From Steroidobacteraceae bacterium (GTDB lineage: Bacteria > Pseudomonadota > Gammaproteobacteria > Steroidobacterales > Steroidobacteraceae), in contig JAHCAM010000010.1 of NCBI GenBank assembly GCA_019634895.1, positions 1 to 64,000 of the forward strand: a stretch of 64,000 bases of DNA, read 5' to 3'. The position numbers and the translations under genes were made by a program. Positions 21,309-39,588 of this stretch are shown here, in pieces. Below the pieces are notes generated by a model. It was not told the DNA's origin. It worked only from the letters and a program-made list of their open reading frames with translations, and did no database searches. Every line of letters starts with the position of its first letter. The stretch's first letter is position 1.

Positions 21309-21312
21309 CAAT

Positions 21313-21376
21313 GGTGCCGGGTCGTAGATTCGTAGTTTACCGCGCCGCCAAAACTACGAATCTACGACCCGGCACC
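21313..21376. repeat. 26-bp perfect inverted repeat at the end of the redox operon
   Basis: Arms at 21313-21338 and 21351-21376 are perfectly complementary, with a 12-base loop. The arms belong to the GACCCGGCACC family. The right arm encodes the last codons and the TAG stop of the five-heme cytochrome, and the left arm begins five bases from the DDAH start. It can form a strong hairpin and probably ends operon transcription. Confidence 0.85.
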
Positions 21377-22642
21377 GAGGCGGGAGAGGAGGCGGGCGAA
21401 GCGGGCGGGGTCGTAGCGCTCGTCGTCCTGCAGGTCGGCGAACAGCGCCTCGATGCGCGGGTCGGAGTCGAGCGTGCGGCCGGAGGCGGCGAGCAGCAGC
21501 GTCACCGCCATGACCGCCTGCTCGGCGGCGGAATAGTCGGGAAACTCGCCGCGTCCGGCGGCGGCGAGGATGGCCGAGAGCATGGCATCGCGGTCGGCGG
21601 CGGCGAAGCGGCGCGCGCCCGACCATTGCCGCAGCGCCGGGATCTCCCGCTGCAGCGACTGCGCGGCCTCGCGCAGTGCCGGCATGCCCTCGTTCGCGGC
21701 GCGGTGCAGCCGCGTCGTCGCCTCGCGCAACGCCGCCCCGCGCTCGGGCTCGACGGCGTCCAGCACCACGGCCAGCATGACGAGCGCGCTGTCCTGCACG
21801 CGCAGGCTGCCCGGCGCGAGCCCGGGCGCGTCGCGCAAGCGCCTGAGCTTCATCGAGCGGTGGCAGCTGTAGCAGTTGAACAGGGCGAAGTCCGGGAACA
21901 CGCCGCGCGAATGGCGCTCGTCGGCGACGATCTCGAGCGTGCGCGAGGCGGACTCCAGCAGGCCCGTGAGCCACATCGAGACGCCGTCGGACTCGGTCTT
22001 GCGCCTCGCGTAATCCGTGTCCCGCCGGTAATGCTCGCGGCCGCCACTGGTGCGCCACAACTCGGAATAGGTATCGAGCTCGAAGGCGAGGCGCGGATGG
22101 CCGGCCGCCATCAGCGAGTGACCGGCCATGCGCGCGGCGGAGCCGACGTGGCATGCGGAGCAGACGCCCGCGCGCACGTCGGCGCGTTCGAGCGCGACCA
22201 GGCCCTGCGCGACGTTGTCGGCGTGCGTGACGCGCGGCGCGTCGTCGTGGCTCGCGATCCATTTCGAGGACGCGCCGTGGCAGGCCTCGCAGCCGACGCC
22301 GTCGTCGAGCTGGAAGCGCGCCCCGCGCCGGGCAGCGGGCACGTGCTCGGCGTGGCAGTCGAGGCACAGCGGCTCGCGCGCGGCGTCGGCGATGCCGAGC
22401 CGCGCGGCCATGCGGGTCGAGGCTTCCTCGCGCAGCGTGCGGAACGCCCCGGCGTGCGGGTCGAAGTGCGACCAGGTGACGTACTCGTTGCGCAGCACGT
22501 TCGCGTTCTCGACCGGCTTCGCGACGCCGTGGCAGACGCTGGAGGCGCAGGAGGCGACGCCGAGGTGGCTGGCCGGCGCGTCGGCCGCGAGCGCAGGCGC
22601 CGCGATGAGCGCACAGGACGCCGTCATGATCAGTCGCCGCAT
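21362..22642 (-). CDS. exported five-heme c-type cytochrome
   Basis: A 426-residue protein read from the ATG at 22642, four bases after the stop of the decaheme gene. The signal peptide is RRLIMTASCALIAAPALA. Five heme-attachment sites are visible: one CX4CH (CASSVCH), then CLDCH, CEACH, CSACH and CYSCH. The first site and its surroundings (VASCASSVCHG) and GVGCEACHG resemble cytochrome c554-like multihaem proteins. The C-terminal 170 residues are helical and heme-free. It closes the ten-gene redox operon and should act in the periplasm or at the outer membrane. The last codons and the stop come from a repeat element. Confidence 0.87.
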   Translation of the reverse strand: MRRLIMTASCALIAAPALAADAPASHLGVASCASSVCHGVAKPVENANVLRNEYVTWSHFDPHAGAFRTLREEASTRMAARLGIADAAREPLCLDCHAEHVPAARRGARFQLDDGVGCEACHGASSKWIASHDDAPRVTHADNVAQGLVALERADVRAGVCSACHVGSAARMAGHSLMAAGHPRLAFELDTYSELWRTSGGREHYRRDTDYARRKTESDGVSMWLTGLLESASRTLEIVADERHSRGVFPDFALFNCYSCHRSMKLRRLRDAPGLAPGSLRVQDSALVMLAVVLDAVEPERGAALREATTRLHRAANEGMPALREAAQSLQREIPALRQWSGARRFAAADRDAMLSAILAAAGRGEFPDYSAAEQAVMAVTLLLAASGRTLDSDPRIEALFADLQDDERYDPARFARLLSRLGAGS

Positions 22643-22646
22643 GCGG

Positions 22647-25600
22647 TCACCATTCATCCGGCACCACCCATGGCCTGCCATCGCGATCGAGGTAAAGCCG
22701 GCGCATCTCGGCGGCGTTGAAGGGCCGCGAACCGCGCCGCCCGAATACTGCGACCTGTCCGCCGGTCTCGTCCACCGCGCGGTCGCGCTCCAGCGGGCGC
22801 GACAGGGACAGCGCGGGGCGCCGGGTCGCGAATCTCGCGACCAGCTGCGGGCGCGGCTCGGGGCTGAAGCCGTAGAAGTTGGGCTGCGTGTCCGGCGCCG
22901 TGAGCTGGATCACCTTGAGCCCGCCCGCGCCGTCGGCGACGTAGGCGAACAGCGTGGCGTTGGTGGAGGCGACGACCACGTCGCGCGCGTCGCGGATCGC
23001 GCCGTCGCCGTCGAAATGCCGCAGCAGCGCCGGACGGGCCGGCCGCTCGACGTCCACGATGGCGAGGCCTTTCGCGCCATCGGCGACGTAGGCGTGGTTC
23101 CGGGATACGAAGACGCCGGCTGCCCGGGCGAGCGGCACCGTGGCATCGGCCAGCAGTTCCGGCTGCATCGGCCGGGTGACGTCCACGACGCGCAGCCCAC
23201 TGGCGTCGGTCACGAAGAGATAGCGGAACTGCAGCGCACTCGCGCGGCCGTCGCGCAGCGGCACCGGCGCCGCGGCCTTCGGCGCCAGCGGATCGCTGAG
23301 GTCCACGACCACGAGGCCGGCATCGGCGATCACGTAGGCGAAGTTGCCGCCGAGGGTCAGGTGCCGCGCGCCGGCAAGCAGGCCGCCGCCGTCCCAGGTC
23401 AGCGCGCGCTTCAGGCGGTTGTTCCTGAACTCGCCGTCGGCCAGCGTGTTGATGTCCACCAGGATCAGCCCTTCGGCCGCGTCGGTCACGACCGCGTAGT
23501 TGTAGATCGGCGCGAACGGCTGCTCGAGGTTGGCGACGCGCATCAGCTCGCCGGTGTTGCGCGCCGGGTGCACCGGCTGCGTGGTCGGCAGTGCGACGCA
23601 GGTGGCGTCGCGCGACTTCACGCGGGTGTCGTGGCCGAGCGGCGAGAACGGCGCGGTGATCAGCTTCTGGCTCACGCCCTTGTTGCCGATGCCGGCCGCG
23701 TCGTAGACGACCAGCCCGCGCGCGCCCTCGGCGACGTAGAGGTACTCGCCGCGCAGCTGCAGGCAGCGCGCCGGGCCGGAGGAGTGGGTCGAGGCGTTCT
23801 GCAGCGTCCGGCCGCGTTCCCCGTGCCGGCGGAACCAGTCGGGGTAGGCGTAGCGGTGCAGGTAACTGCCGATGACCGCCTGCGGCTCGTCCCATTCGGT
23901 CACCTGCACCGCCGCCACTTCGCCCTCGGTGCCGACCCAGGCGTGGAAGCCGATGAAGTTGATGAACTGCGTCCCGAGGCCGAGCGTCTGCGCCAGGATC
24001 GCGTTGTTGTCGCCGGCGTCCGAGAGATGGCAGTCGTTGCAGCGCCTGGTCTCGGTCTTGCGCTCGGTGTGCGGGTAATGCGGGTTCATCGCCTGCGAGC
24101 TGTAGCCCGAGGCCGCGATCGGCGGCTGCTGGACGTAGATGCGCTCGCGGTTGGCGTTGGTCGAGGACAGCACCAGCGCGGAGGACGAGCGCACCGGCGC
24201 GACCTTGCCGCCTTCGGTGGGCCCGCGCAGGCCGAGCATGAACACCTCGTCGCGCGCGACCTGCGGGTTGTAGCTCGACCAGTTGCGGAAGGTGCCGCCC
24301 TCGTAGCGGTGCGACCCGGTCTTCCAGTTGGCCTCGATCGGCAGGTGGCAGCCGCCGCAGGCCGTGGTCCAGGAGGTGTGGCAGGCGTAGCACTCCATCT
24401 GCTCGTCGGCATGCGCGAGATCGTCCGGCGCGACCTTCGGGCCCCAGGCGAGCGTCTGCGTGTCGCGCGACATCAGCTTGGCGCGCGCGGCCTTCTCGTT
24501 GTAGTGCGGGTTCGCCGGCGTGACGCTGTCCTTGACCAGCGAAATTTCCCATTCGCGCTGCGGGTCGAGGATGGAGCGCTGGATCAGTTTCCCGCCCAGC
24601 CACTCGAAGCGCCGGCGTCCGTCGGGGTTGCGCAGCACGGAGAGGTCGGAGCCGGAGGGTCCGGCGGCGGGGCCGGAAGTGCGCAGCGTCGGGTAGGCAT
24701 TCACCGTGCCGTGGCAGTCCTTGCAGTCGATCTCGACCGCCTGCGCGACCTCGCCGTAGAGATGGCCGTTGCCGTGCGAGTCCTGCGCGAAGTGGCAGTC
24801 CACGCAGTGCATGCCGGCATCCGCGTGCGAGGAGGAAAGATGCACGGCCTTCGCGAACTTCTGCGGGTCGTCGTTCGCGACCAGCCGGCCTTCGGCGTCC
24901 AGCAGGTTGCCCTTGCGGTCGCGCTTGAAGACGGCGCGGAAGTTCCAGCCGTGGCCGTGGTAGTCGGCGAACTGCGTGTCCTGCAGCTGCGGGTTGAGCT
25001 CCGAGACGCGTTTCAGGAACTCGAGGTCGCCCCAGAGCCCGCGTGCGGCCGCGCCCTCGGGGTTCCGGTCGTACACCGCGCGCGCCTCGGCGGCCGTCGG
25101 GTACTTCTGCTCCTTCGGCCACATGAAGGGCGCGTCGGACTCGTAGTCCCACATCGTGTAGCCGAGGTAGGTGTTCATGAACATGTTCGGCTGGTGCATG
25201 TGGCAGACCATGCACTGCGAGGTCGGGATCGCGCGCGAGAACGCGTGCGCGAGCGGATGGCCCGGGCGCTCGCGCGGGATGGTGGGATCCCTGGTCTGCG
25301 TGGTGCCGCCGTGGCCGTAGCGCGCGTAGGGCCCGGAATGCTTCGGGTCGCGGTCGTTGGCGTAGACCACGTGGCAGGCGGAGCAGCCGGAGGAGCGGTA
25401 GTCGCCGGGCTGGTCGTTGGTGCCGAGGAACCAGGCGAGCGGGTCGTTCAGGCGCGTCTTGTGGATGTTGAGCACCGGCACGGCGATGCGCGCGCCGGTG
25501 CCGGGGCCGCGGTTCGACTGGCGGATGTCGGGCCGCCCCGGTTCCTCGAGCCGCTGGACCTGGCCGGTCACGTTCGGCACGCCGGTCTCGGGGAACAGGT

Positions 25601-26363
25601 TCGTGAGGTTGCGGCCGCCGTCCTCGAACACGCGGAAGATGTCGGCGGGCTTCAGGTTCTGCCACGGCGGCAGCGGGTAGAGCTTCTCGAGGATGCCGTG
25701 GGCGGCGCGCTCCTCGGGCGTCGCCGGCGCGCCCTCGAGGATCGCGGCGCGGCCGTCGCGGGTGTAGGCCTCGCCGAGGATGTAGTTCTTGAACGGCAGG
25801 ATGCCGTTGTTGTACGCGGCGCCACCCCAGAACATGGCGTTGGTGGACATCAGGCTGCGCTCGGCGGCGACGATGACCTTCATGTGGCAGGCGCCGCAGG
25901 CCTCGCGCACCACGCGGTAGTCGGAGGGATTCACGAAGCGGATGAACTCGGGCGCCTCGCGGTTCAGCAGCGTGTAGCTGCGCACCGGATTCGCGCTCGC
26001 GGGCCAGCGCCAGTCGTCCGGGAAGCGCGGCAGCACGTGCGCGCGATCTCGCGCGGCGGCGTAGTCGGAGGTCGCTTCGACGGCCCGGCCCTGCCAGCGC
26101 ACCGCGGCGTTCCCGCCGTGGCAGTCGGTGCAGCCGAGCACGACGGCGGGGCTCGCGTGCATCGAGGGCTCGTCCGTCTCGCGGTGGCAGTCCATGCAGC
26201 CGGCGCTCTTCGCCGCCGCCTGTTCGCGCGTCTGCAGCGCCGGCGCACCGGGCGCGGTCATCCATTGCCGCTCGACGGGTTTGCCGTGCCGGTCGGCGGC
26301 GATGGCCGCGACTGCGAGCGCGATGGCGAGGCTGCCGGCGGCGGCGAGGAGATTGCGGCGCAT
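22647..26363 (-). CDS. decaheme c-type cytochrome fused to LVIVD-repeat propeller
   Basis: A 1238-residue exported protein (signal peptide RRNLLAAAGSLAIALAVAAIAA). Ten CXXCH sites lie in the first 800 or so residues: CMDCH, CTDCH, CGACH, CSACH, CMVCH, CVDCH, CKDCH, CYACH, CGGCH and CNDCH. The C-terminal 400 residues carry LVIVD-type repeats (GLVVYDAAG, GLILVDINT, GLVVVDLSDP, GLRVVDVTRP, GLAIVDVERP), predicted to fold as a beta-propeller that could dock a partner or surface. The porin gene lies two bases upstream in the same operon, so the pair could form an outer-membrane electron conduit comparable in principle to MtrCAB, without sequence identity to it. Electron direction is unknown. Confidence 0.88.
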   Translation of the reverse strand: MRRNLLAAAGSLAIALAVAAIAADRHGKPVERQWMTAPGAPALQTREQAAAKSAGCMDCHRETDEPSMHASPAVVLGCTDCHGGNAAVRWQGRAVEATSDYAAARDRAHVLPRFPDDWRWPASANPVRSYTLLNREAPEFIRFVNPSDYRVVREACGACHMKVIVAAERSLMSTNAMFWGGAAYNNGILPFKNYILGEAYTRDGRAAILEGAPATPEERAAHGILEKLYPLPPWQNLKPADIFRVFEDGGRNLTNLFPETGVPNVTGQVQRLEEPGRPDIRQSNRGPGTGARIAVPVLNIHKTRLNDPLAWFLGTNDQPGDYRSSGCSACHVVYANDRDPKHSGPYARYGHGGTTQTRDPTIPRERPGHPLAHAFSRAIPTSQCMVCHMHQPNMFMNTYLGYTMWDYESDAPFMWPKEQKYPTAAEARAVYDRNPEGAAARGLWGDLEFLKRVSELNPQLQDTQFADYHGHGWNFRAVFKRDRKGNLLDAEGRLVANDDPQKFAKAVHLSSSHADAGMHCVDCHFAQDSHGNGHLYGEVAQAVEIDCKDCHGTVNAYPTLRTSGPAAGPSGSDLSVLRNPDGRRRFEWLGGKLIQRSILDPQREWEISLVKDSVTPANPHYNEKAARAKLMSRDTQTLAWGPKVAPDDLAHADEQMECYACHTSWTTACGGCHLPIEANWKTGSHRYEGGTFRNWSSYNPQVARDEVFMLGLRGPTEGGKVAPVRSSSALVLSSTNANRERIYVQQPPIAASGYSSQAMNPHYPHTERKTETRRCNDCHLSDAGDNNAILAQTLGLGTQFINFIGFHAWVGTEGEVAAVQVTEWDEPQAVIGSYLHRYAYPDWFRRHGERGRTLQNASTHSSGPARCLQLRGEYLYVAEGARGLVVYDAAGIGNKGVSQKLITAPFSPLGHDTRVKSRDATCVALPTTQPVHPARNTGELMRVANLEQPFAPIYNYAVVTDAAEGLILVDINTLADGEFRNNRLKRALTWDGGGLLAGARHLTLGGNFAYVIADAGLVVVDLSDPLAPKAAAPVPLRDGRASALQFRYLFVTDASGLRVVDVTRPMQPELLADATVPLARAAGVFVSRNHAYVADGAKGLAIVDVERPARPALLRHFDGDGAIRDARDVVVASTNATLFAYVADGAGGLKVIQLTAPDTQPNFYGFSPEPRPQLVARFATRRPALSLSRPLERDRAVDETGGQVAVFGRRGSRPFNAAEMRRLYLDRDGRPWVVPDEW

Positions 26364-26365
26364 GG

Positions 26366-28174
26366 TCAGTACGCGAACACCAGGTTGCCGAGGATGGAAT
26401 AGGGCGTCTTCCTGCCGTACAAATCCGCGAATCCGCGACCCGGCACCAGGGCAGCGGCGGACAGGCGGACCACGATGTTCTGCGTGGCGAGCGGGCGCCA
26501 GGTGAGGGCGACCGAGAAGTCGAGGCCGATGTCGCGGCCGATGTCCGCCTGCATGCGCGCGGCCTCGAGCACCGCGGTGTCCGCGAACCAGAGGTAGTTG
26601 GCATTGACCGAGGCGCGCAATGTCGGCGTCAGGTCGAGGTCGCCGCCGGCGCCGACGAGCAGCAGGCCCGGATTGGTGAAATTGGACTGGCCGAACTCCT
26701 TGGAAGAGCGCAGCGAGTTCAGCACGCCGTTCCTGCCCGAGAGCGAGACGCGCCCGCCGCCGACCAGCGGCACCGGCTGGCGGATCCAGAAGCTGGTGTC
26801 GGCGCCCGCGATCAGCGGGTTCTCGAAGATGGCGTCGTAGCCCTGCGACACGTCGTCGAAGGGATCGTCGTCGCCGCTGGCGTAGAGCAGCGTGCCGCGC
26901 GCGCGGACCCAGTCGAAGTCGCGCGACAGCTCGGCGGCGCCGAAGAAGGCGCGGATGTCGGCGGACTGCGCCGTGAAGGTGCCGAGGTCCTCCTCGCCGA
27001 TGGCGCCGTAGGCGGAGACGCTCAGGTTCCACCGCCCGACGTGGCCGTCGCCGTTGTAGCCGAGGTAGGTCACGTCGTAGTCGCGCGCGCGCTCGAGGCC
27101 GAGCGAGGAGGGCCGCTGGATGAAGCGGTTGTCGTCGTAGAACTGGTCGCTGCCCTCGCGGTTCCGGTTGTGCGCCAGCACCAGCTGCGAGTTGTAGCCG
27201 AGCCAGGGCCAGTCCTGGCGGTAGAGGTTGGCGACGAACACGTCGTCGTCGCGGAACGCGTCGCCGCCGAGTTCGATCAGGTCGTTGAGGCCGCTGTTGG
27301 TGTCCTTCTCCAGGCGGCGGAACCAGGCGAGGTTGTACTGCCAGTGGTTGTTGTCGCGGGTGCCGAACAGGCGCACGCCGAAGGGGCTGTCCTGGAACAG
27401 GAAGCCGCGGAAGTCGGCGGTGAACGGCTGCACGCCGACGCGGATGCTGTCGAAGTCGTAGCGATCGGAGACGTTCCGCAGGTGCTTGTCCACGAACAGC
27501 GCCTGCACCCCGATCGCGCCGTCGCTGCGGGTGGTGCCGCGCGCCGGGTTCGCCCTCAGGATGCCGGGTTCGTTGACCGCCGCGTAGTTGAGGTTGAACA
27601 CCGGGGTGAAGCGGAACTCCCAGTCCGGCGGCTTGAACACGGTGCTGCCCTTGTACAGCACGAACTCGGCGGCCAGGCTCTGGGCGTAGACCTGCTGCTC
27701 GCCGTCGCCGATGGTGTCGAGGCTGCCGGGATCGCCGCTGTCGGCGGCGGCGACCGGCACCGGGAAGCGGCGCGGCTCGATCACGCTGTCGCTGACCAGG
27801 CCGAGGTTGAAGAACCAGTCCTCGCCGATGACGGGACGGTCGCCCTTGAGCCAGTTGTTGCCGTGGTAGGGATCGAGCAGGTTCTCGCGGTAGCCGAGCA
27901 GGCTGACGATGCGCCAGCGGTCGGGCAGCCCGGAGAACTCGTCGAGCGCGTTCGGGTCGGCGCCGGGCAGGCGCGCGGGATCGCAGGGCGTGGGCTCGAA
28001 GGGCAGCACCGGAACGCGCGGGCTGCGCCGATTCGGCCGCGCCTCCTCCTGCGGCGGGCACCGCTCATAAATGGGACGCGTCCCATTATCTTCGGCCTCA
28101 TTGCGGTAATTGGACGCGTCCCCTTTATCTGGGGCGAGGAGCGCGAGCGCGGCGATGAGGCTACTTGCCCGCAC
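26366..28174 (-). CDS. outer-membrane porin-like beta-barrel of the redox operon, with two repeat insertions
   Basis: A 602-residue protein read from GTG at 28174, overlapping the preceding gene by 14 bases. A short hydrophobic leader (LIAALALLAP) is followed at once by residues about 16-35 encoded by a GGACGCGTCC repeat element. The body has alternating aromatic beta-strands (WEFRFTPVFNLNYAAV, WQYNLAWFRRL, YDVTYLGYNGDG) and ends in ILGNLVFAY, a typical outer-membrane assembly signal with a terminal aromatic. Near the C-terminus VPGRGFADL is encoded by a second repeat family. Between two cytochrome-related genes, it is the best candidate for the outer-membrane pore of an electron conduit. Signal-peptide cleavage next to the insertion is uncertain. 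Confidence 0.8.
   Translation of the reverse strand: MRASSLIAALALLAPDKGDASNYRNEAEDNGTRPIYERCPPQEEARPNRRSPRVPVLPFEPTPCDPARLPGADPNALDEFSGLPDRWRIVSLLGYRENLLDPYHGNNWLKGDRPVIGEDWFFNLGLVSDSVIEPRRFPVPVAAADSGDPGSLDTIGDGEQQVYAQSLAAEFVLYKGSTVFKPPDWEFRFTPVFNLNYAAVNEPGILRANPARGTTRSDGAIGVQALFVDKHLRNVSDRYDFDSIRVGVQPFTADFRGFLFQDSPFGVRLFGTRDNNHWQYNLAWFRRLEKDTNSGLNDLIELGGDAFRDDDVFVANLYRQDWPWLGYNSQLVLAHNRNREGSDQFYDDNRFIQRPSSLGLERARDYDVTYLGYNGDGHVGRWNLSVSAYGAIGEEDLGTFTAQSADIRAFFGAAELSRDFDWVRARGTLLYASGDDDPFDDVSQGYDAIFENPLIAGADTSFWIRQPVPLVGGGRVSLSGRNGVLNSLRSSKEFGQSNFTNPGLLLVGAGGDLDLTPTLRASVNANYLWFADTAVLEAARMQADIGRDIGLDFSVALTWRPLATQNIVVRLSAAALVPGRGFADLYGRKTPYSILGNLVFAY
26421..26447. repeat. 27-bp dispersed element inside the porin gene
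   Basis: This is identical over 27 bases to 16101-16127. It is translated in frame as part of VPGRGFADL, about 20 residues before the porin C-terminus. Confidence 0.8.
28068..28127. repeat. GGACGCGTCC repeat pair inside the porin gene
   Basis: Cores at 28074-28083 and 28112-28121 are in inverted array with A/T flanks. The element is translated through as about 20 codons right after the signal peptide region of the porin and does not break the frame. Confidence 0.85.
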
Positions 28175-30137
28175 AGACGCCCTCCGCGGCGGAATCGAGG
28201 AACGGCGCCTGCGGGCAGTTGACGTAGCGCAGGCGGTTGCCGACCGGAACGAGAGTGTCGGCGCGCGCCGCTGCGGGCGCGTTGCCGATTGCGCCGCCGA
28301 GCTGCGCGGAGGCCTCGTGCAGTCCCAGGAACGCGATCATGTCGTCCTGGTCCACGCCGTCGCCGGAGACGCCGATGCCGCCGACCAGCGCGGCGCCGCG
28401 ATAGACGGGCACGCCGCCCGGGAAGATCTGCAGGCCGTTCGCCAGCTGCCCGAACGCGCCGCTGACGCCGAACCCGAGGTTGAACCCCTGCACGCCGGTG
28501 CAGTTCTGCGGCACGTCCGCGGCGAGCCCGGCGACGAAGGCGACGTGCTGGATGATGGCGTTGTGCGCCAGGTCGAGCTGCAGCCCGGTCGAGAACGGCG
28601 TCCACTCGCCGGCCGGCTTGGAGAGCGGACCGTGCGGCGCGCCATCCACGCCGTCCGGATAGAAAGGCCGCGCCAGGTTGCCGACCGCGCGCGTGCTGAA
28701 GGCGACCGCGCCGTCGGCGAGCGCATTGGGCAGGCCAGTAAATGCACGCAGGTCCGTGACGTACTGCCCGACCGGCTCGTTGCGCAGCACCACCAGCCCG
28801 CCGTCCAGGTACACGGCGTCCGGCACGCCGTTGAGCGCGGCGGCGGCGGCAGCCGAGGAGAGGAACGCCGCGCTGCGCGCCTTCTGCAGCGCGACGTCGA
28901 TGCCGAACAGGGGCGCATCGCGGCCGCGCGCAATGCCGAGGATCGCGCCGTTCGTGTCCACGACCGCGACCGTCACGCGCGCCGGACTGCCGAGCGGGCG
29001 GCGGATCTGCGCGCGCGCGCGATTGGCGATGCGCAGGGCCTCGGCGATGATGGTGCGCACCTCGGCGGCGCTGAGCGCGCCGGGACCATCGGTGCCCGCT
29101 GCCGGCCGGAAACGCTCGACATCCGCTGCGTCCACCATCACGAAGGCGTCGAGCCCCGGATAGTCGAGCGCATCGGCGCGCACGCCGGAGGCGGGCTGGC
29201 CGAAGGCGGTGCCCGCGATCACGGCGGCGGCCGAATACCCCGGCACCGCCACCAGCACGCCGGCGACGCCATTGAGCGCAGCGAAAGCCGGCGGCGCGCC
29301 CGTGTTCGCGACCAGATCGCCGAACAGCGCATCCGCGAGGCGCAGCAGCTTGCCATCCGCCGCGATGCGCTCGGCGCGGCGATCGTCCGGCGCGGCGCGG
29401 CCGAAGGTGGCGGCCAGCGCGATCAACTCGTCGAGGTCCGCATCCACGTCCTGTACGTTCGCATCGAGTCCGTAGATGCCGTCGGCGATCACGCCGACGC
29501 CGCCGACCGGCGTGCCGGCCTTGTACAGCGGCAGGCCGCCGGGATCCGCGGCCAGGCCCAGCGGCGAGCGCTTGGGGCCCGCGTCCGCCGCGCCGCCCGC
29601 GTAGCGTGCAGAAAGGTCGGAGCAGGGCAACTGGCTGAACTGCACGCCGAACAGGGGTCCGGCGGGGGCGAGGACCTCTCCGGGATTGAAGTGTTCCTGC
29701 ACGATCTGGCTCGCGGTGCGCGTGCCGAAGGCGTGGCCCTCGGTCGAGAGATAGGCCGCGGTGACCGCTTTCGCGATCGCAGCCAGGGTGTCCGGCACGA
29801 CGGCGACGCCCTCGAGCCCGCCGCTGGCGCCGTTCGACTGCACGGCGACGGTGGTCGCGGCGCCGTTCATGCGGAACACCGCCAGCACGTTGCCGGCGCG
29901 GTCCACGACTGCGATCGTCGCAGCCGCGCCGCGCGCCTGCGCTTCGGCCACCGCGCGCGCGATGACGGCCTCGACCTCGGCGACCGCGAGGAAGCTCGCG
30001 GGCCCGGCGCAGGAACCGTCGCAGCCCGCGGGCGGCGGATCGACCGCGCCTGGCGGCGACGACGCGGTCCCGCCGCCGCCGCAGGCCGAAACGGACGAAA
30101 CCAGCGCCAGCAGTGCGAGCGCGCGCATCGCGCTCAT
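28161..30137 (-). CDS. lipoprotein with two GlcG/HbpS-like domains
   Basis: A 658-residue protein read from the ATG at 30137, sharing ATGA with the upstream FHA-cytochrome gene. The signal peptide ends at a lipobox-like VSACGGG (Cys near 19). Two copies of a GlcG/HbpS-like domain follow. The first (about 48-300) contains VIARAVAEAQARGAAATIAVVDRAGNVLAVFRM. The second (about 335-640) contains IIAEALRIANRARAQ and RVTVAVVDTNGAILGIARGRDAP. HbpS-type proteins bind heme or sense oxidative stress. In this operon a role in heme handling or redox sensing next to the cytochromes is plausible but inferred. The gene overlaps the porin gene downstream. Confidence 0.82.
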   Translation of the reverse strand: MSAMRALALLALVSSVSACGGGGTASSPPGAVDPPPAGCDGSCAGPASFLAVAEVEAVIARAVAEAQARGAAATIAVVDRAGNVLAVFRMNGAATTVAVQSNGASGGLEGVAVVPDTLAAIAKAVTAAYLSTEGHAFGTRTASQIVQEHFNPGEVLAPAGPLFGVQFSQLPCSDLSARYAGGAADAGPKRSPLGLAADPGGLPLYKAGTPVGGVGVIADGIYGLDANVQDVDADLDELIALAATFGRAAPDDRRAERIAADGKLLRLADALFGDLVANTGAPPAFAALNGVAGVLVAVPGYSAAAVIAGTAFGQPASGVRADALDYPGLDAFVMVDAADVERFRPAAGTDGPGALSAAEVRTIIAEALRIANRARAQIRRPLGSPARVTVAVVDTNGAILGIARGRDAPLFGIDVALQKARSAAFLSSAAAAAALNGVPDAVYLDGGLVVLRNEPVGQYVTDLRAFTGLPNALADGAVAFSTRAVGNLARPFYPDGVDGAPHGPLSKPAGEWTPFSTGLQLDLAHNAIIQHVAFVAGLAADVPQNCTGVQGFNLGFGVSGAFGQLANGLQIFPGGVPVYRGAALVGGIGVSGDGVDQDDMIAFLGLHEASAQLGGAIGNAPAAARADTLVPVGNRLRYVNCPQAPFLDSAAEGVCAGK

Positions 30138-31762: not shown

Positions 31763-31766
31763 GGCA

Positions 31767-32648: not shown

Positions 32649-32657
32649 GGCGTGTAT

Positions 32658-34988
32658 TTACCGTTCCACGCGCGCGACCAGGTCCATGAGGCTCTCGGGG
32701 CCGACGCGGATAGCGGCGCCGGTCGGGCAGGCGCGCACGCAGGCGGGACCGCCCGAAAGGTCCTTGCACATGTCGCACTTGACGGCCTTCTTCGGACCCG
32801 ACTTCTCGGCCGCCGCCATCTGGATCACGCCGTAGGGGCAGTTCCGCTCGCAGTTGCCGCAGCCGATGCAGTTGTCGCGGATGTAGACCTCGCCGTTCGG
32901 CGCGCGCCGGATCGCGTCCGGCGGGCAGTCGGTCATGCAGTGCGGGTCCTCGCAGTGCCGGCAGGAGGTCGGCACGTGCAGGCGCGCGTAGGTCGGCCCC
33001 GCCTCGCGGTCGAGGCGCGAGGTGCCGTCGTGCGTGCCGGCGCAGGCCTTCTCGCAGTTGTCGCAGCCGATGCACAGCGACTCGTCGATCAGCAGCACGT
33101 CGGTCGCCTCGCCGAGGCCCTGCTGCATCAGGAAGGAGACGATGTCGCCGGTCTGCGGCTGCGCGGAGATGCGCGCGTTCTCGGCCAGGCGCTTGCGCAC
33201 CAGCGCCTGCACCTTCTGCCGGAGCTCGGGATTGCGCGCGAGCAGCGCGTCGAAATCGGCCGCCGACAGGCTCACGGTCTCGGTCGCGACGTTGGCGCGC
33301 ACGGTGGCCGCGCGCCGCGTGCGGCCCATCAGGCCCATCTCGCCGACGTAGTTGCCGGCCGCGACGTAGGAGGTGACGATCTCGCGCCCGCCGATGTTGC
33401 GCGAGACCGCGACCGAGCCGCTGCGGATCAGGTGCAGGGTGTCGGCCTCGTCGCCCTCGGCGAAGATCACCGTCCCCGGCTTCCAGTCGTTGACCCTCGC
33501 GCGCGCGGCGACCGCCTCGAGTTCCTCGTCGGAGGCATTGGGCGCGAACGCGGTCTGGATCGCGCGGATCACGAAGTGCCGGTCGATGTGGTGGCGCACC
33601 GCCTCGATCGAGTTGATCAGCTTCAGCACCTCGCGCCGCGGCGACTCGACCAGCACGCAGCCTGCGGAGGCATAGGCGGTGGCGGACCGGCGCCGCCCCG
33701 ACAGCAGGCTCATTTCCCCGAAGAACTGTCCGGGGCCGAGCTTGAGGCGATAGGGGTTCTCCTCGCCGATCTCGATCTCGACCGTGCCGTCCACGATCGT
33801 GAAGAAGCTGTCGGTGTAGTCGTTGCGGCGGAAGATCACCGCGCCCGCCTCGGGACGGTGCACCGCGCTTCCCAGCATGAACTCGCGGAACTGCAGCGGG
33901 TTGACCTCGCGGTAGAGCGGGATGCGCTCCTGGATCAGCGCGAGCGTGTCGTCCACCGTGAGGCCGAAGCGCAGCTTCGCGAACTTCTCCTCGAACAGCG
34001 GGTGGTCGGCCGGGCGCAGGTCGCGGCCGAGGATGTACTCGACGACCTCGTAGCCCTGGTTCATCGCCTGCTTGATCAGCGGGTAGCCGCCGAGCGCGCC
34101 GATCACGTACAGGCCGGGCACGCTGGACTCGTAGCGGCCGGAGAGCGCCGGCAGCGCCATCGGATCGGCGCTGGGGAAGGCGATGCCGCAGGACTCGACG
34201 AACCGGCGCGGCGGGATGGCGCCGATGCGCGCGATGATGCGGTCGCAGGCGATGCGGGCCTCGCCTTCGGCGGTGTTGAGCACCAGCACGTAGGGCCGCG
34301 CGGCGCCGGCCTCCGCGCGCTCGACGGCGGCGACGCCGCTGCGGTACCAGCAGCCGATGCGCCCGGACTCGATGGACTTGAGGATCAGCTTGAGGTTGCC
34401 GTCCTTGACGCGCGCGAACTCGTCGATGCGGTTGACGATGGCGACCTCGTTGTTCGCGGCCAGCGCGACCGCGTTCTCGATGGCCGCGTCGCCGGCGCCG
34501 ACCACGACGATGACCTCGCCGCGGTACTCGTCGGGATCGTCGAGCTGGTACTGCACGCAGGGCAGGTCCGCGCCCGGCACTTCCAGCTGCCGCAGGTTGC
34601 CCTGCATGCCGATCGCGAACACGACGTGGTCGGCGGTGACCGAGCCGCCGTCCCGGAGGGACAGGCGGAAGGCGGCGCCATCCTTCGCGATGGCCGTGAC
34701 CTGGGCGCCGTAGCGGACGTTGGCGCCGGTGGCGTCGAGTCCTGCCCGCCAGCGCTCGAGCACGGTCTCGCGCGTGCCGGCCTCGAACGGCAGGTCGGCG
34801 CGCAACGGCAGCACCGGCGGCTCCGCCATGACGTGCTTGCCCTTCTGGTAGCGCTGGATCGTGTGCGCGTGCGCCGCGCTCGCCTCGAGCAGGACGTGGT
34901 CGACCCCGAGCCGTGCCGCGTGGGCTGCGGCGCTCAGGCCGCCGGGACCGGCGCCGACGATGGCGATCCGGTGGTGCCCGGCGTTCAT
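32658..34988 (-). CDS. flavoprotein fused to two cyclic-nucleotide-binding domains and a four-cluster ferredoxin
   Basis: A 776-residue cytoplasmic fusion. Residues 1-330 are a two-Rossmann FAD/NAD(P) oxidoreductase (IVGAGPGGLSAAAHAARLG at 10-28; VVVGAGDAAIENAVAL). Two cyclic-nucleotide-binding domains follow, about 375-480 and 495-610. Both keep the phosphate-binding Glu and Arg (FFGEMSLLSGRRRSAT; YVGEMGLMGRTRRAAT). The last 140 residues hold 16 Cys in four [4Fe-4S] sets (CIGCDNCEKAC; CRHCEDPHCMTDC; CIGCGNCERNC; CDMCKDLSGGPACVRAC), as in DmsB/HybA-type ferredoxins. It probably moves electrons between NAD(P)H and the membrane cytochrome b and is gated by cAMP from the cyclase encoded at the operon head. 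Confidence 0.92.
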   Translation of the reverse strand: MNAGHHRIAIVGAGPGGLSAAAHAARLGVDHVLLEASAAHAHTIQRYQKGKHVMAEPPVLPLRADLPFEAGTRETVLERWRAGLDATGANVRYGAQVTAIAKDGAAFRLSLRDGGSVTADHVVFAIGMQGNLRQLEVPGADLPCVQYQLDDPDEYRGEVIVVVGAGDAAIENAVALAANNEVAIVNRIDEFARVKDGNLKLILKSIESGRIGCWYRSGVAAVERAEAGAARPYVLVLNTAEGEARIACDRIIARIGAIPPRRFVESCGIAFPSADPMALPALSGRYESSVPGLYVIGALGGYPLIKQAMNQGYEVVEYILGRDLRPADHPLFEEKFAKLRFGLTVDDTLALIQERIPLYREVNPLQFREFMLGSAVHRPEAGAVIFRRNDYTDSFFTIVDGTVEIEIGEENPYRLKLGPGQFFGEMSLLSGRRRSATAYASAGCVLVESPRREVLKLINSIEAVRHHIDRHFVIRAIQTAFAPNASDEELEAVAARARVNDWKPGTVIFAEGDEADTLHLIRSGSVAVSRNIGGREIVTSYVAAGNYVGEMGLMGRTRRAATVRANVATETVSLSAADFDALLARNPELRQKVQALVRKRLAENARISAQPQTGDIVSFLMQQGLGEATDVLLIDESLCIGCDNCEKACAGTHDGTSRLDREAGPTYARLHVPTSCRHCEDPHCMTDCPPDAIRRAPNGEVYIRDNCIGCGNCERNCPYGVIQMAAAEKSGPKKAVKCDMCKDLSGGPACVRACPTGAAIRVGPESLMDLVARVER

Positions 34989-34993
34989 GCCCC

Positions 34994-35995
34994 TCAGCCG
35001 CCGCCTGGCGGCGGTGGATTGTTCGCGGGCGGCGGCGGCAGGTTGGTCGAAGGCGGCGGCAGCGACGGCGTTCCGGGCGGCGGATTGTTCGGGCTGCGCT
35101 GGTCCAGGGTCCCGCGCGTCAGGTCCACGGGCTGGCCATTGACCGTGCCGCGGACCGGCCGCTCGAGGCCCGCCTTGCCGTCAGGGCCCGGCGGATCCGG
35201 CGGCGCGGAATCCGCAGGAGCCGGACCCTCAGGCGGCCGGTGCGTGGCCGAGAAATCGGGCAGGCCCGCCTGGCCCTTGCCGACGTCTGCGCGCTGTCCG
35301 GTCTCGAGCGCTCCGGCGCCGTCGGCCGCGACCCATTCCGGCAGCTGGTCGAGCGGCTCGGGCAGGGCATCCGCCGCGGCGATGAAGATCGCCTGGCCCG
35401 CCTCGACCACGGCCTCGCGATTGCCGTAGCGGAACACGATCGCGCCGGAGTGGGTCGCGAGGTACATGCCGTTGCGCGCCGGCGCCGCGGCGGGGACGTC
35501 CGCGCAGTCGCCCTGGCACCAGACCGCCGTGTAGTCGGTGCCGCGGATGCCGAGCGTGCCGATGGGCGTGCGCACCTCGTAGGTGCCGGCGCCTTCCTTG
35601 CCGATCGCGCCGGTGGAACTGCGGAACCCGCCCTTCAGCAGCGTCGTCACCGACACGCCCTGCGCCTGGACCGCGGTCGCCTGCGTGGCCGCGCCGACCG
35701 TCGCCGGCAGCGCGAACTCGTCCACGCGCCAGCGCGAATTGGCCCGCAGCGCGACGCGCGCGCCGTCGTTCATCAGGATCTGCGCACGGGACTTGTCGCC
35801 GGTCGCCACGGTGTCGCCGGCCTGCACCGCGTCGCCCTGCGCGAGGGCGACGGGCGGCGCGCGCTCGAGGGCGACGCTGCCGGCGACGAACAGCGCCTTG
35901 CCAGCCTCCTTCGCGGCGGCGGCGCCGGCCGCGAAGGCGAGCGCGAGGGCGAATGCCGCGGTGACGGCGCGGATGCTCGATCTCTCTGGCGTCAT
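34994..35995 (-). CDS. exported FecR-domain protein with proline-rich tail
   Basis: A 333-residue protein read from the ATG at 35995, with a signal peptide (AVTAAFALALAFAAGAAAA). Residues about 35-165 form a FecR domain (GDAVQAGDTVATGDKSRAQILMNDGARVALRANSRWRVDEF, VRTPIGTLGIRGTDY). The last 50 residues are nearly all Pro, Gly and Asn. FecR proteins next to a CHASE2 cyclase and a TPR-barrel gene are a recurring set, which suggests an envelope sensor feeding the cyclase. It lies 5 bases before the flavoprotein gene and 8 bases after the barrel gene. The ligand is unknown. Confidence 0.85.
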   Translation of the reverse strand: MTPERSSIRAVTAAFALALAFAAGAAAAKEAGKALFVAGSVALERAPPVALAQGDAVQAGDTVATGDKSRAQILMNDGARVALRANSRWRVDEFALPATVGAATQATAVQAQGVSVTTLLKGGFRSSTGAIGKEGAGTYEVRTPIGTLGIRGTDYTAVWCQGDCADVPAAAPARNGMYLATHSGAIVFRYGNREAVVEAGQAIFIAAADALPEPLDQLPEWVAADGAGALETGQRADVGKGQAGLPDFSATHRPPEGPAPADSAPPDPPGPDGKAGLERPVRGTVNGQPVDLTRGTLDQRSPNNPPPGTPSLPPPSTNLPPPPANNPPPPGGG

Positions 35996-36003
35996 GGCGT
36001 CCC

Positions 36004-37323
36004 TCACTGGCGGAACGGACGCGTGAGCGTCAGTCCGGCCTCGAAGCGGTGGTATTCGTAGAGCGCGACGTTCGAGCGGTTCACCGTCCAGCCGACCCGC
36101 GGCACGAGCGTGAAGCCGCGCGCCGGCCAGTCGCGGATCCCGACGGTGAAGGCCGCGGACCAGTGGGTGTCGGAGCGGTCCATGCCGCCGAAGAAGCCGG
36201 GCGTGCCGTCGAAGTCCACGTCCTGCCATGCGAACAGCATGCCGACGTCGTGGCCGGCGGCGCTGCGCTTGCCGCCGTAGAGCTGCAGTCCCAGTCGCTC
36301 GTTGCCGAACGGCGAGGCGGACTCCCGCGCGTCGTCGCTGCCGTGGAACAGCGTGACGCCGAAGTGCCCCTCGTCGTCCGCGCGCTGCAGCGCGACGGCG
36401 GCCATGAACTGGTCCACGTCGCGGATCGAGAGGCCCGGGAACTCGCCCGTCTCGTAGCGGAGCTGGCCGCCGCGCAGCATGCCGGTGGCGCGCCAGCCGT
36501 CGCCGAAACCATGGCTCAGCGACAGGTCGAGGTTCAGGCTCCAGTGATGCGGGTCGCCGTGCAGCAGCCCGTACCAGCCGCCCAGGCCGACGCCGAACAC
36601 GGTCGGCCCGTCTCCGAAACGCAGTTGCGTGCCGAGCGAGGCGATGGTCTGGTCCACCCAGTCGGCATCGGGGTTCCAGCGGTGGCTGAGGCGGCCGCTG
36701 GTCTCGAGGCGGCCGCCGCCGAGGCCGGCCGAATGCCCGAACCAGCCGGCGCCGGTCATGAACGCGGAGGACTGCTCGACGCTGGTCGGGTCGAGCGTGA
36801 TGCCGAGGAAGGTCTCGTCTTCGGTCGAGGCGTTGGCGTTGCTGTCGAAGCCGGCGCCGAACTCGTAGCCGCCGCGCAAGCCGCCGGCAGCGGCGGCCGC
36901 CGGCGCCTGCGTCGAACGCAGCCAGGCTTCGGCGGATGAGCGCACGGCCGGCGGGGGATCGAGCGCGAGCGCCTCGCGGAACTGGCGCTCGGCGGCGGTG
37001 CGCTCGCCGGCAGCCCGGTAGGCGCGGCCGAGTTCGAGTCGTGCCGCTGCGGAGCGCGGATCGTTCGCGACCACGCGCTCCAGCGCGCGAGACGCGGCCT
37101 GCGGCTGGCCCGCGTCCAGCGCGGCGACTCCATATAGATAGTCGTAGAGCGCCGAGCCCGCGTATGCGGCCTCGTGCCGGGCGAGCAGGCGCCAGGCCTC
37201 GGCGCCGCGGCCGTCGCGGATCAGGCGTTCCGCGTCGGCGAGCACGGCGGCGGATTCGGAGAAAGCGGCGGCGGGTACGAAGGTGCACGCCAGCGCGATG
37301 CAGCGGATGAGTCGTCTGCCCAC
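36004..37323 (-). CDS. TPR protein with C-terminal outer-membrane beta-barrel
   Basis: A 439-residue exported protein (signal peptide RCIALACTFVPAAAFS). Residues 25-135 hold tetratricopeptide repeats (YDYLYGVAALDAGQPQAASRALERVVANDPRSAAARLELGRAYRAAGERTAAERQFREAL). From about 150 on, the sequence is beta-barrel-like with alternating strands (GGYEFGAGFDSNANAS, SLNLDLSLSHGFGDGWRATG, TLVPRVGWTVNRSNVALYEYHRFEAGLTLTRPFRQ). The layout resembles Slam/DUF560-type proteins, in which a periplasmic TPR is joined to an outer-membrane barrel. It could sense or assemble surface components for the redox operon. It is second in the operon, 36 bases after the cyclase gene. Confidence 0.8.
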   Translation of the reverse strand: MGRRLIRCIALACTFVPAAAFSESAAVLADAERLIRDGRGAEAWRLLARHEAAYAGSALYDYLYGVAALDAGQPQAASRALERVVANDPRSAAARLELGRAYRAAGERTAAERQFREALALDPPPAVRSSAEAWLRSTQAPAAAAAGGLRGGYEFGAGFDSNANASTEDETFLGITLDPTSVEQSSAFMTGAGWFGHSAGLGGGRLETSGRLSHRWNPDADWVDQTIASLGTQLRFGDGPTVFGVGLGGWYGLLHGDPHHWSLNLDLSLSHGFGDGWRATGMLRGGQLRYETGEFPGLSIRDVDQFMAAVALQRADDEGHFGVTLFHGSDDARESASPFGNERLGLQLYGGKRSAAGHDVGMLFAWQDVDFDGTPGFFGGMDRSDTHWSAAFTVGIRDWPARGFTLVPRVGWTVNRSNVALYEYHRFEAGLTLTRPFRQ

Positions 37324-37359
37324 AAGCCCCCCAGCAACGACGCGCCGGCGCGCGCCGTA

Positions 37360-39588
37360 TTATTTAACCTCGAAGGTGAAAACACCATCCCAATCGGGCG
37401 CCGGCGGCTGCGCCCGGAAGTGCCGGATGCGCCCGAGATAGAGCCGGTAGAGAGCATGCGGTGACGCCGCATCCAGTTCCGTGACCAGCGTCTCGGCGCC
37501 GTCCCAGTCGCGGGCCCGGTAACGCGCGAGCGCCTCGGCGAAGCGCTGCGCGGCGGGCTCCTCCGCCGGCGCGATCGGCTCGAAGATGCCCACCGGCTCC
37601 TTCTTGCCCTTGACGCGCACGCGGTCGAGCTCGCGGTACTTCAGTTCCGGCGCCAGCGCCACGGTCCGTTCGCTGACGATGATGTTGACGCCGTAGGTCT
37701 TGGTGAGGCCCTCGAGGCGCGAGCCGAGGTTCACGGCGTCGCCCAGCACGGTATAGGCGGCGCGGAACTGCGAGCCCATGTTGCCGACGTTCATCTCGCC
37801 GCTGGAGATGCCGACGCCGATCTCGATCGCCGGCCAGCCGCGGGCCTCGAAAGCGGGCCGCAGCGCGCGCATCTCGGCGACCATCGCCTGCGCCGCCTGC
37901 ACCGCGTGCGCCGCATGCGCCGGATCCGGCAGCGGCGCGCCCCAGAAGGCCATCACCGCGTCACCCATGTACTTGTCGATGGTGCCGCGATGGCGGTGGA
38001 TCGCGGCGGTGATCGGCGTCAGGAACTCGTTCATGAGCTGCGTCAGCTCGCGCGCGCCCAGGCCCTCGGAGATCGTGGTGAAACCGCGCACGTCCGAGAA
38101 CAGCACCGACATCTCCCGGCTCTCGCCCTCGAGCGAAACCTCGGCGCCGCCGGCGTCGAGCTCGCTGACGATCTCCGACGGCACGTACTGGCCGAAGATG
38201 CGCGACAGGCGCTGCCGGCGGCGGGTGGCGGTGAAGTATCCCCAGGTGAGCTGCAGCAGCGCCGCGGCCGCGGTGTAGACCAGCACGCCGGCGAGCGGCA
38301 GCACCAGGCCGTAACGCGCCCACAGCATCAGGTTGAGCCCGAGGGCCGCGCCGACCAGCAGCAGGAACAGGCCGAAGCCGGCCAGCGGCGCGAGGCGCGG
38401 CAGCAGCAGCGCCGTGACCCCTGCGACCAGCAGCAGCGCGAGGATCTCCGCGAGCGCCGACTGCCGCGGCCGGAACGGGATCGTGCCGTCGAGGAAGCCC
38501 GAGACCAGGTTGGCGTGCGCCTCGACGCCGATGTACTCCTTGGCGACCGGCACCGCGCGCACGTCCTGCAGTCCCGGCGCGCTCGCGCCGACCAGGACGA
38601 TGGCGTCCTCGAGGGCCTCCGCCGGCGCCCGCTGGTTCAGGACGTCGGTCGCGGAGACGTAGCGGAAGCTGCCGAGCGGGCCGCGGAAGGGTATGAGCAC
38701 CGCGCCCTGGCCGTCGACCGGGATCCGGGTCGCGCCGAGCAGCAGGTGCACCAGGCGCTCGGGGCGGTCCGGATCGAATGCGAACTGCACCGGCGGCGCG
38801 CGCTGCGCAAGGCGGGCGAGCGCAAAGGCGAGCGATTCGTAGAGGTTGCCGTCGTAATGCTGCAGCAGCGGGACGCGGCGCACGACGCCGTCCTCGTCGG
38901 TCAGCGGCGTGTCGAAGAAGCCGCCGGCGGCGGCGGATTGCTGCAGCGCCGGCAGGTTGGCGGCGTAGCCCTTCGGCCGCAGCCAGCCTTGGTTGCGGAT
39001 GCGCGCGTCGCCGGAGGTGATCGGCGGCGGCAGCATGCCGGTGGCCGCCGGCTCGGACGGGCCGGGCGACTGCTTGAACACGTAGCCGAGCACGATGTCG
39101 CGCGCGACCAGCGATTCCGCCAGCAGCCGGTCGCCTTCGTGCTCGCGGCGGATCTTCTCCAGCTGCACGAGCCGCTCGGTGTCGCCGGCGAGCGGTCCGC
39201 TGGCGATGGCCTCGATCAGCCGGATCTCGGCGCTGCGCTCGGGCTCGCCGAACAGCACGTCGTAGCCCAGCGCGCGGATGCCGTAGCCGTCGAACAGCGC
39301 GTCGTTGAGGGCCGCGATCTTGCTGCGCGGCCAGGGCCACTGGCCCTCGGCGGCCAGGCTGGCCTCGTCGATGTCCACGATGACGACGCGCGGGTCGACG
39401 ACCTCCGGCATCATCCAGCCGACGCGCACGTCGTAGAGGTAGTTCTCGATGCGCTGCACGAACTCGAGCGGCAGGACGCCGGCGGCGTGCAGCACGAAGA
39501 ACAGCAGGGGGATTGCGGAGAGCAGGATGCGCTGCAGCGCCCGGCCTGCGGCCCTCCACGTCGCTGCAATCCGGGATGGCGCCCCCAT
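37360..39588 (-). CDS. CHASE2-domain class III adenylate cyclase
   Basis: A 742-residue membrane enzyme heading the operon. An N-terminal hydrophobic helix is followed by a periplasmic CHASE2 sensor (about 45-340: YLYDVRVGWMMPEVVDPRVVIVDIDEASLAAEGQWPWPRS), three membrane helices (about 370-440) and a cyclase domain (about 490-680). The catalytic metal residues D499 (FSDVRGFT) and D543 (DKYMGDAVMAF) are present. K539 and the later LGDAVNLGSRLEG segment fit adenine rather than guanine specificity, so the product should be cAMP. Its own operon encodes a protein with two cAMP-type binding domains, so the signal may act locally. Confidence 0.92.
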   Translation of the reverse strand: MGAPSRIAATWRAAGRALQRILLSAIPLLFFVLHAAGVLPLEFVQRIENYLYDVRVGWMMPEVVDPRVVIVDIDEASLAAEGQWPWPRSKIAALNDALFDGYGIRALGYDVLFGEPERSAEIRLIEAIASGPLAGDTERLVQLEKIRREHEGDRLLAESLVARDIVLGYVFKQSPGPSEPAATGMLPPPITSGDARIRNQGWLRPKGYAANLPALQQSAAAGGFFDTPLTDEDGVVRRVPLLQHYDGNLYESLAFALARLAQRAPPVQFAFDPDRPERLVHLLLGATRIPVDGQGAVLIPFRGPLGSFRYVSATDVLNQRAPAEALEDAIVLVGASAPGLQDVRAVPVAKEYIGVEAHANLVSGFLDGTIPFRPRQSALAEILALLLVAGVTALLLPRLAPLAGFGLFLLLVGAALGLNLMLWARYGLVLPLAGVLVYTAAAALLQLTWGYFTATRRRQRLSRIFGQYVPSEIVSELDAGGAEVSLEGESREMSVLFSDVRGFTTISEGLGARELTQLMNEFLTPITAAIHRHRGTIDKYMGDAVMAFWGAPLPDPAHAAHAVQAAQAMVAEMRALRPAFEARGWPAIEIGVGISSGEMNVGNMGSQFRAAYTVLGDAVNLGSRLEGLTKTYGVNIIVSERTVALAPELKYRELDRVRVKGKKEPVGIFEPIAPAEEPAAQRFAEALARYRARDWDGAETLVTELDAASPHALYRLYLGRIRHFRAQPPAPDWDGVFTFEVK

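Follow-up and report, generated by a model that had tools for sequence, protein, structure and literature searches.

Among described porin-cytochrome systems, the nearest to the gene cluster analyzed here is PCC4 (He et al. 2017, PMC5566968), which comprises a porin, cytochromes with 4, 5 and 10 hemes and a five-helix protein carrying two WX3HX13H motifs and SGXXG, and in whose subgroup II a PF13247 iron-sulfur (Fe-S) gene lies upstream of the gene for the five-helix protein. According to the main text of that study, PCC4 was first noted in iron oxidizers and metal-rich filters and was proposed as a conduit; the model of the inner partner invoked quinone, and both PCC3 and PCC4 were proposed to serve electron uptake. 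The cluster compared with it here lies in a 64,000-nt window (the whole stretch of DNA analyzed) from a Steroidobacteraceae bacterium (GCA_019634895.1, contig JAHCAM010000010.1, positions 1–64,000 of the forward strand), in which ten minus-strand genes lie close together at 39588–21362, neighbors being separated by no more than 36 bp or overlapping slightly. The cluster is real and widely shared, and most likely it moves electrons from inside the cell to its outer envelope. More specifically, and with a probability of about 0.5, we read its sequence as that of a conserved trans-envelope NAD(P)H electron-export system, sister to PCC4 and gated by cyclic AMP (cAMP).

The complete ten-gene order recurs in loci L018/L019, L020 and L022 (labels L and G denote the loci and genomes compared, G000 being the window genome), all from families of the window's order other than its own, although the cyclase gene of L022 is truncated by a contig end; such an order is far beyond chance. 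G050 has the same ten genes with the trio of cyclase, TPR-barrel and FecR genes relocated behind the pentaheme gene, and in G460 the trio stands between the b protein and flavoprotein genes on the opposite strand. When 84,980 species genomes were searched with a profile of the decaheme-LVIVD cytochrome, at least 548 encoded relatives were found, and the loci inspected, the best 80 of at least 548, come from Alpha-, Beta- and Gammaproteobacteria. Isolates among these 80 belong to Steroidobacter, Parahaliea, Pseudoteredinibacter, Duganella, Limnobacter and Oceanibacterium, cultured carriers including Steroidobacter agaridevorans, Parahaliea mediterranea and Limnobacter alexandrii. All six core genes other than that of the pentaheme cytochrome are present in 33 of the 35 named loci with full flanks, and the pentaheme gene as well in 26. 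On this distribution the core, which recurs across three classes, consists of seven genes, encoding the flavoprotein with its cyclic-nucleotide-binding (CNB) and Fe-S domains, the diheme b protein, the FHA-decaheme cytochrome, the GlcG lipoprotein, the barrel, the decaheme-LVIVD cytochrome and the pentaheme cytochrome, and the cyclase, TPR-barrel and FecR genes form an accessory set.

Six of 59 relatives carry the flavoprotein, at 61–69% identity. In evenly drawn samples it was present in 15 of 274 genomes from the class and in 9 of 299 from the phylum, and 21 of 240 genomes from the class of G145, taken to be Alphaproteobacteria, encode this type of b protein. Together with PCC4 the system is found in roughly 3–12% of the proteobacterial genomes sampled. 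Pairwise divergence resolves two co-evolving modules, with rho of 0.75 between flavoprotein and FHA-decaheme cytochrome, 0.43–0.51 among GlcG lipoprotein, barrel and decaheme-LVIVD cytochrome, and 0.20–0.40 between the modules; in L129-type loci the two are separate gene groups on opposite strands. Three records labeled as Klebsiella pneumoniae, Vicinamibacteria and Marinimicrobia metagenome-assembled genomes (MAGs; L075, L139 and L149) carry operons close to the proteobacterial ones, and misnaming or misbinning is likely. A second flavoprotein with CNB and Fe-S domains was seen in L059 (G059:C17:45000-64999), with a cyclase about 4 kb off and the other core genes not nearby. Beside the core in a few loci (L101 and L131), upstream or downstream, lies a CcmI/CycH-type TPR-like gene (cytochrome c maturation), a likeness judged by eye.

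Comparison of the inner module with PCC4 revises the original prediction, which knew of no described conduit with this set of parts. PCC4-type loci (L173 and L175–L185, with 4, 5 and 10 hemes) were reached through weak matches to the b protein profile in the class of G145. Their five-helix protein is homologous to the window b protein (hhalign 99.6%, E 1.8e-23), which has the features described for PCC4, WX3HX13H on transmembrane helices 3 and 5 and SGXXG on helix 4. The gene directly upstream encodes the window flavoprotein, which contains PF13247 (3.1e-13) and whose C-terminal half is homologous to the PCC4 Fe-S protein (hhalign 100%). That PF13247 protein itself bears CNB domains in L185 (7474–9159, three domains) and in its homologues in L173–L184, and the Glu and Arg of the pocket never vary. 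These domains go unmentioned in the main text of the study that named PCC4 (PMC5566968), and neither "cyclic" nor "FHA" occurs there. A literature search for LVIVD, FHA-decaheme or CNB proteins in this context found nothing specific. Homologs in both systems are the CNB/[4Fe-4S] protein, the b protein, the decaheme and the tetra/pentaheme c554 cytochromes; each has a porin gene, and a cyclase lies beside some PCC4 copies, as in L179, where a cassette of CHASE2 cyclase, TPR and FecR genes adjoins. PCC4 differs in lacking GlcG and the LVIVD decaheme, in a porin not detectably related to the window barrel, in an unrelated terminal cytochrome, in its heme numbers (4/5/10 vs 10/10/5 in the window) and in a separate NqrF-like FAD/NAD/2Fe-2S reductase where the window has a fused flavin domain of thioredoxin reductase (TrxR) type. 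Window and PCC4 porins gave no hidden Markov model match at E 1e-3 and an hhalign probability of 0.3%, so that any relation would be a distant one, and the PCC4 pentaheme cytochrome matched the LVIVD protein weakly, over the heme motifs. Membership in PCC4 was rejected on heme numbers, and the cluster was retained as a sister system.

The ligands expected of an electron-transfer chain are conserved throughout the inner module. Sixteen Fe-S cysteines of the flavoprotein are invariant in all 85 homologues that cover the region (86 in the set). Its flavin domain has no redox CxxC, and its NAD(P) motif, similar to the Arg-rich NADPH motif found in thioredoxin reductase, suggests a preference for NADPH. 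Between flavin and Fe-S domains stand the two CNB domains, and the phosphate-binding cassette Glu and Arg of cAMP/cGMP-binding proteins, which the original prediction had linked to cyclic-nucleotide binding, are present in CNB1 (Glu in 85/86 homologues, Arg in 86/86) and mostly so in CNB2 (71/86 and 81/86), also in loci without a cyclase nearby. On these conserved pockets the domains appear built to bind cAMP; the choice of cAMP over cGMP and an allosteric effect are predictions. In the b protein, H82/H96 and H271/H285 of the two WX3HX13H motifs are invariant in 53 sequences, W78, W267 and SGxxG are found in all or nearly all of them, and AlphaFold places five membrane helices (pLDDT 91.5; helical segments 75–97, 105–138 and 231–292). 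A fold search returned generic helical-bundle matches, with NarI far down the list, on which no family was assigned. The FHA-decaheme cytochrome has 10 CxxCH and exactly 10 further conserved His, and the pentaheme cytochrome keeps 5 heme His and 5 other His in at least 90% of 64 sequences, its fifth motif (CX4CH) being invariant; at median identities to the window of 34% and 37%, both behave, to judge by these patterns, as freely diverging bis-His wires.

A flavin reductase recurs in three systems with this inner-membrane protein, as a TrxR-type domain in the window, an NqrF-like enzyme in PCC4 and a ferredoxin-Pyr_redox (Fer4-Pyr_redox) protein in the PCC3-like locus L172. Because flavin reductase, Fe-S protein and the same b protein recur together, with another flavoprotein family in PCC4, the comparison favors NAD(P)H over quinone as inner partner, contrary to the model of He et al. 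PCC3 itself shares the five-helix b protein with the same motifs, and L172 has an Fe-S/Pyr_redox flavoprotein; PCC3 differs in its cytochromes with 13–21 or more hemes, and CNB domains were not seen in L172. In L172, 13- and 21-heme cytochromes lie next to the b protein, the ferredoxin-Pyr_redox flavoprotein and cytochrome c maturation genes.

The cyclase carries FSDVRGFT, DKYMGD and GDAVNLGSR, and since the metal Asp pair and the adenine-specifying Lys/Asp residues read from these fit ATP and not GTP, an adenylate rather than a guanylate cyclase is the natural reading. The trio also occurs in L013, L018, L020, L022 and L024. Carriers have few class III cyclase genes per genome, yet of 21 genomes 13 have a cyclase no more than 25 kb from the flavoprotein (1.2 predicted by random placement, P<5e-6) and 7 have one no more than 10 kb away (0.5 expected, P<5e-6), in keeping with the predicted link between the two proteins. 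Arrangement and distance vary among lineages; in G145 and G272 the sole cyclase is the nearby one, 19–21 kb away. Some lineages without the cyclase have a PP2C phosphatase and a two-FHA protein, sometimes with a Ser/Thr kinase, after the pentaheme gene. This set, which stands in place of the cyclase cassette and includes the kinase in few loci, was seen in L082–L085, L087, L091, L099, L103, L124 and others, in Haliea/Steroidobacter/Pseudoteredinibacter-type lineages. As PP2C, FHA and kinase genes follow the core in several lineages, the FHA domain of the decaheme cytochrome was considered as a phosphothreonine reader and rejected: the window sequence has GRS then VALRHA where GR and SRxHA are canonical, the Ser is lost throughout the homologues and the Arg in several, and the domain is absent in L116, L131 and L139. 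Of the FHA-decaheme protein first predicted, the ten hemes and the FHA Pfam match stand, on a domain that is degenerate.

The outer module departs from known conduits. The barrel, modeled by AlphaFold with 18–19 strands (pLDDT 84.9), best matches AlgE (Z 28.1, root-mean-square deviation 2.8 Å over 366 residues), followed by OprD-type channels, and on its strand count and fold an MtrAB-like porin was rejected. Within the porin gene, in frame between the signal-peptide-like and mature parts (28069–28126), lies an inverted pair (AAAGGGGACGCGTCC) resembling repetitive extragenic palindromes, of which the 2.87-Mb genome holds about 185 copies. The GlcG lipoprotein has a median identity of 57% to its homologues. 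The decaheme-LVIVD cytochrome is the slowest-evolving member, at 65% median identity and with 14 conserved His beyond its 10 CxxCH, a pattern by which the protein looks like an enzyme or a tightly docked terminus rather than a wire. Searching the PDB by sequence with the LVIVD, porin and b proteins gave no relative, and the weak matches of the b protein were unrelated chains.

Each predicted domain agrees with the original prediction (Table 1). Pfam confirms CHASE2 and cyclase, TPR, FecR, Pyr_redox with two cNMP_binding and ferredoxin domains, FHA with multiheme c, HbpS/GlcG-like, LVIVD and C554, and NCBIfam is concordant on the domains; neither the b protein nor the barrel matches a Pfam family (porin at 0.01), and the two were examined instead by motif (b protein) and by AlphaFold. 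The cytochromes carry 10 + 10 + 5 heme motifs. Intergenic gaps from the cyclase onward are 36 bp (to TPR), 8 (to FecR), 5 (to the flavoprotein), 9 (to the b protein) and 4 (to FHA); FHA and GlcG overlap by 4 bp and GlcG and porin by 14, and gaps of 2 bp to LVIVD and 4 bp to the pentaheme gene follow, the last becoming an overlap if an earlier start is used. An arginine-deiminase/DDAH-like gene lies 50 bp downstream of the operon on the same strand (20544–21311), and no recurrence of it as a core neighbor was noticed in the other loci viewed.

Table 1 Genes of the cluster in window coordinates, in order of transcription
Product	Set	Coordinates	Strand	Evidence
CHASE2 class III cyclase, read as adenylate cyclase, 742 aa, signaling	accessory	37360..39588	-	PF05226 1.6e-56, PF00211 2e-18
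TPR + outer-membrane beta-barrel protein, 439 aa, CHASE2/FecR partner	accessory	36004..37323	-	TPR matches, weak SlipAM barrel
Secreted FecR-domain protein, Pro-rich tail, 333 aa	accessory	34994..35995	-	PF04773 2.7e-9
Predicted NAD(P)H flavoprotein (TrxR/YpdA type) + two CNB + four [4Fe-4S] sites, 776 aa	core	32658..34988	-	Pfam, NCBIfam
Inner-membrane diheme b protein, five helices, two WX3HX13H + SGxxG	core	31767..32648	-	motifs, AlphaFold
Degenerate FHA + one transmembrane helix + periplasmic decaheme c	core	30134..31762	-	10 CxxCH
Lipoprotein, two GlcG/HbpS-like domains, lipobox SACGG	core	28161..30137	-	PF03928 1.6e-22
Outer-membrane barrel, ~18 strands, AlgE-like, GTG start	core	26366..28174	-	AlphaFold, AlgE match
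Secreted decaheme c, C-terminal LVIVD repeats, 1238 aa	core	22647..26363	-	PF08309 2.6e-24, 10 CxxCH
Pentaheme c554-like cytochrome, 4 CxxCH + 1 CX4CH	core in most loci	21362..22642	-	PF13435 6.5e-10

From this gene content we infer a carrier order, a direction of flow and a gate. Cytoplasmic NAD(P)H would reduce the FAD of the flavoprotein, from which electrons would pass through four [4Fe-4S] clusters to the two b hemes of the five-helix inner-membrane protein and on to the membrane-anchored FHA-decaheme cytochrome and a periplasmic pentaheme shuttle. At the end of the chain, the decaheme-LVIVD cytochrome, the AlgE-like barrel and the GlcG lipoprotein would together form a tight outer module that reduces an acceptor located at the outer membrane or outside it. 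Outward electron flow is downhill in potential and runs with the membrane field. The two CNB domains may open and close the flavin-to-cluster step, and we propose that a cAMP gate there would spare NAD(P)H when the acceptor is absent; in the lineage of the window, envelope sensing would be turned into the cAMP signal by the CHASE2 cyclase and its partners, the FecR and TPR-barrel proteins. We favor this export reading because all carrier ligands are conserved (16 Cys for Fe-S clusters, four His for b hemes and, in the two wires, 10+10 and 5+5 His for c hemes), and because the seven-gene core spans three classes, the CNB pockets are conserved and the cyclase is linked beyond chance.

Other systems resemble the cluster in part. 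MtrCAB, MtoAB and PioAB likewise combine a barrel with decaheme cytochromes in a possible outer-membrane route, but the window barrel does not belong to PF11854, its predicted strands number about 18 and not 26 around a decaheme MtrA, and no MtrA/DmsE-family match exceeded the cut-off. The ExtHIJKL-S selenite/tellurite cluster of Geobacter (PMC5877670) shares a porin, c cytochromes and b/Fe-S proteins, and the LVIVD cytochrome is weakly ExtM-like; the match reaches 72 bits of an 800-bit cut-off, however, and CNB, GlcG and LVIVD are not described there. NOX and ferric reductases offer an analogy only, in signal-gated transfer from NAD(P)H via FAD to two b hemes (HX13H pairs) and so across the membrane, whereas the window b protein has no Pfam FRD match, Fe-S clusters are interposed and the acceptors are multiheme c cytochromes. 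The window genome also holds, on another contig (G000:C78:147000-163000; L189 9724–12976), an mtrCAB-like cluster with a PF11854 barrel (432.8 bits), a 310-aa decaheme cytochrome and a 766-aa decaheme lipoprotein (lipobox). Given this separate cluster, the window system is probably not the host's only outward route and may have another purpose.

Several observations weigh against the export reading. The placement test counts related genomes as independent, and as genomes of one order are not independent, its P value is optimistic; the cyclase is not adjacent in 8 of the 21 genomes (in one of these, G055, it is truncated at a contig end and went uncounted by the PF00211 search). The CNB2 pocket Glu is gone in about one sixth of the homologues. 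By geometric estimate the barrel has a free width of about 23 Å (18 strands), compared with about 37 Å for 26 strands as in MtrB, and with so narrow an AlgE-like fold it is doubtful that a decaheme wire runs through the barrel in the manner of MtrAB, which is the weakest link of the conduit idea. The LVIVD cytochrome sequence has no lipobox, and its surface location is putative. Of the original claims that every step from NAD(P)H to the exterior is covered and that one operon makes and reads the second messenger, a coherent chain to the periplasm stands, the outward direction and extracellular acceptor being what we infer, and the second holds in some lineages, the cyclase trio being accessory.

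These outer features could also describe an envelope reductase, in which the barrel lets a soluble substrate in or a product out, reduction is the work of the decaheme-LVIVD protein as a periplasmic or outer-membrane enzyme, and electrons stay in the cell. The barrel's matches to AlgE and OprD-type substrate channels, the 65% conservation of the LVIVD protein against 34–37% for the wires, its four conserved His beyond ten-heme need and its weak, sub-cut-off profile likeness (72 bits) to ExtM of a selenite/tellurite operon all suit this idea, which we regard as unlikely though a serious contender; no known substrate-binding signature is present, a porin in a multiheme setting is typical of conduits, and the sister PCC4 was proposed as one (PMC5566968). 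Electron uptake, with the same chain run inward to oxidize Fe(II)/Mn(II) or draw on a cathode, is the role that He et al. suggested for PCC3 and PCC4; here it seems improbable. Inward flow to an NAD(P)H-type flavoprotein would be strongly uphill without a proton-coupled step, a proton-coupled subunit is absent from the operon and many carriers are aerobic heterotrophs, against which stand the first sightings of PCC4 in iron oxidizers and metal-rich filters (PMC5566968) and one homologue (L081) from a biocathode Haliea MAG.

A last alternative accepts the chain and makes its cyclic-nucleotide part incidental, the CNB domains surviving as structural relics and the cyclase cassette being a sensory module of a common type that came to lie close by. 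CHASE2/FecR cassettes are indeed general sensory modules, the CNB2 pocket is lost in some lineages and others have PP2C/FHA/kinase genes instead; yet the CNB1 Glu and Arg are essentially invariant in 86 homologues, the cyclase linkage (13/21 against 1.2 expected) speaks against it, and both CNB domains and cyclase linkage reappear in the sister PCC4, so that we give this version very little credence.

Judged by its sequence, the system is a variant of the porin-cytochrome systems, with an outer module set apart from PCC4. Control of extracellular electron transfer by cAMP has so far been known at the transcriptional level (Shewanella Crp/cyclase, PMC4417206), whereas here both sister systems have CNB domains within the enzyme through which electrons enter. 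Its slow evolution makes the decaheme-LVIVD protein a clear candidate for an enzyme. Tentatively, and at somewhat less than even odds, the two families with cyclic-nucleotide gates inside the feeding enzyme would mean that hundreds of mostly aerobic proteobacteria could switch NAD(P)H-driven export on and off by cAMP at the protein level, delivering electrons to a previously undescribed decaheme-beta-propeller/GlcG/AlgE-like outer-membrane complex. If this holds, common aerobic bacteria of marine, soil and freshwater habitats would export electrons under the control of a signal.

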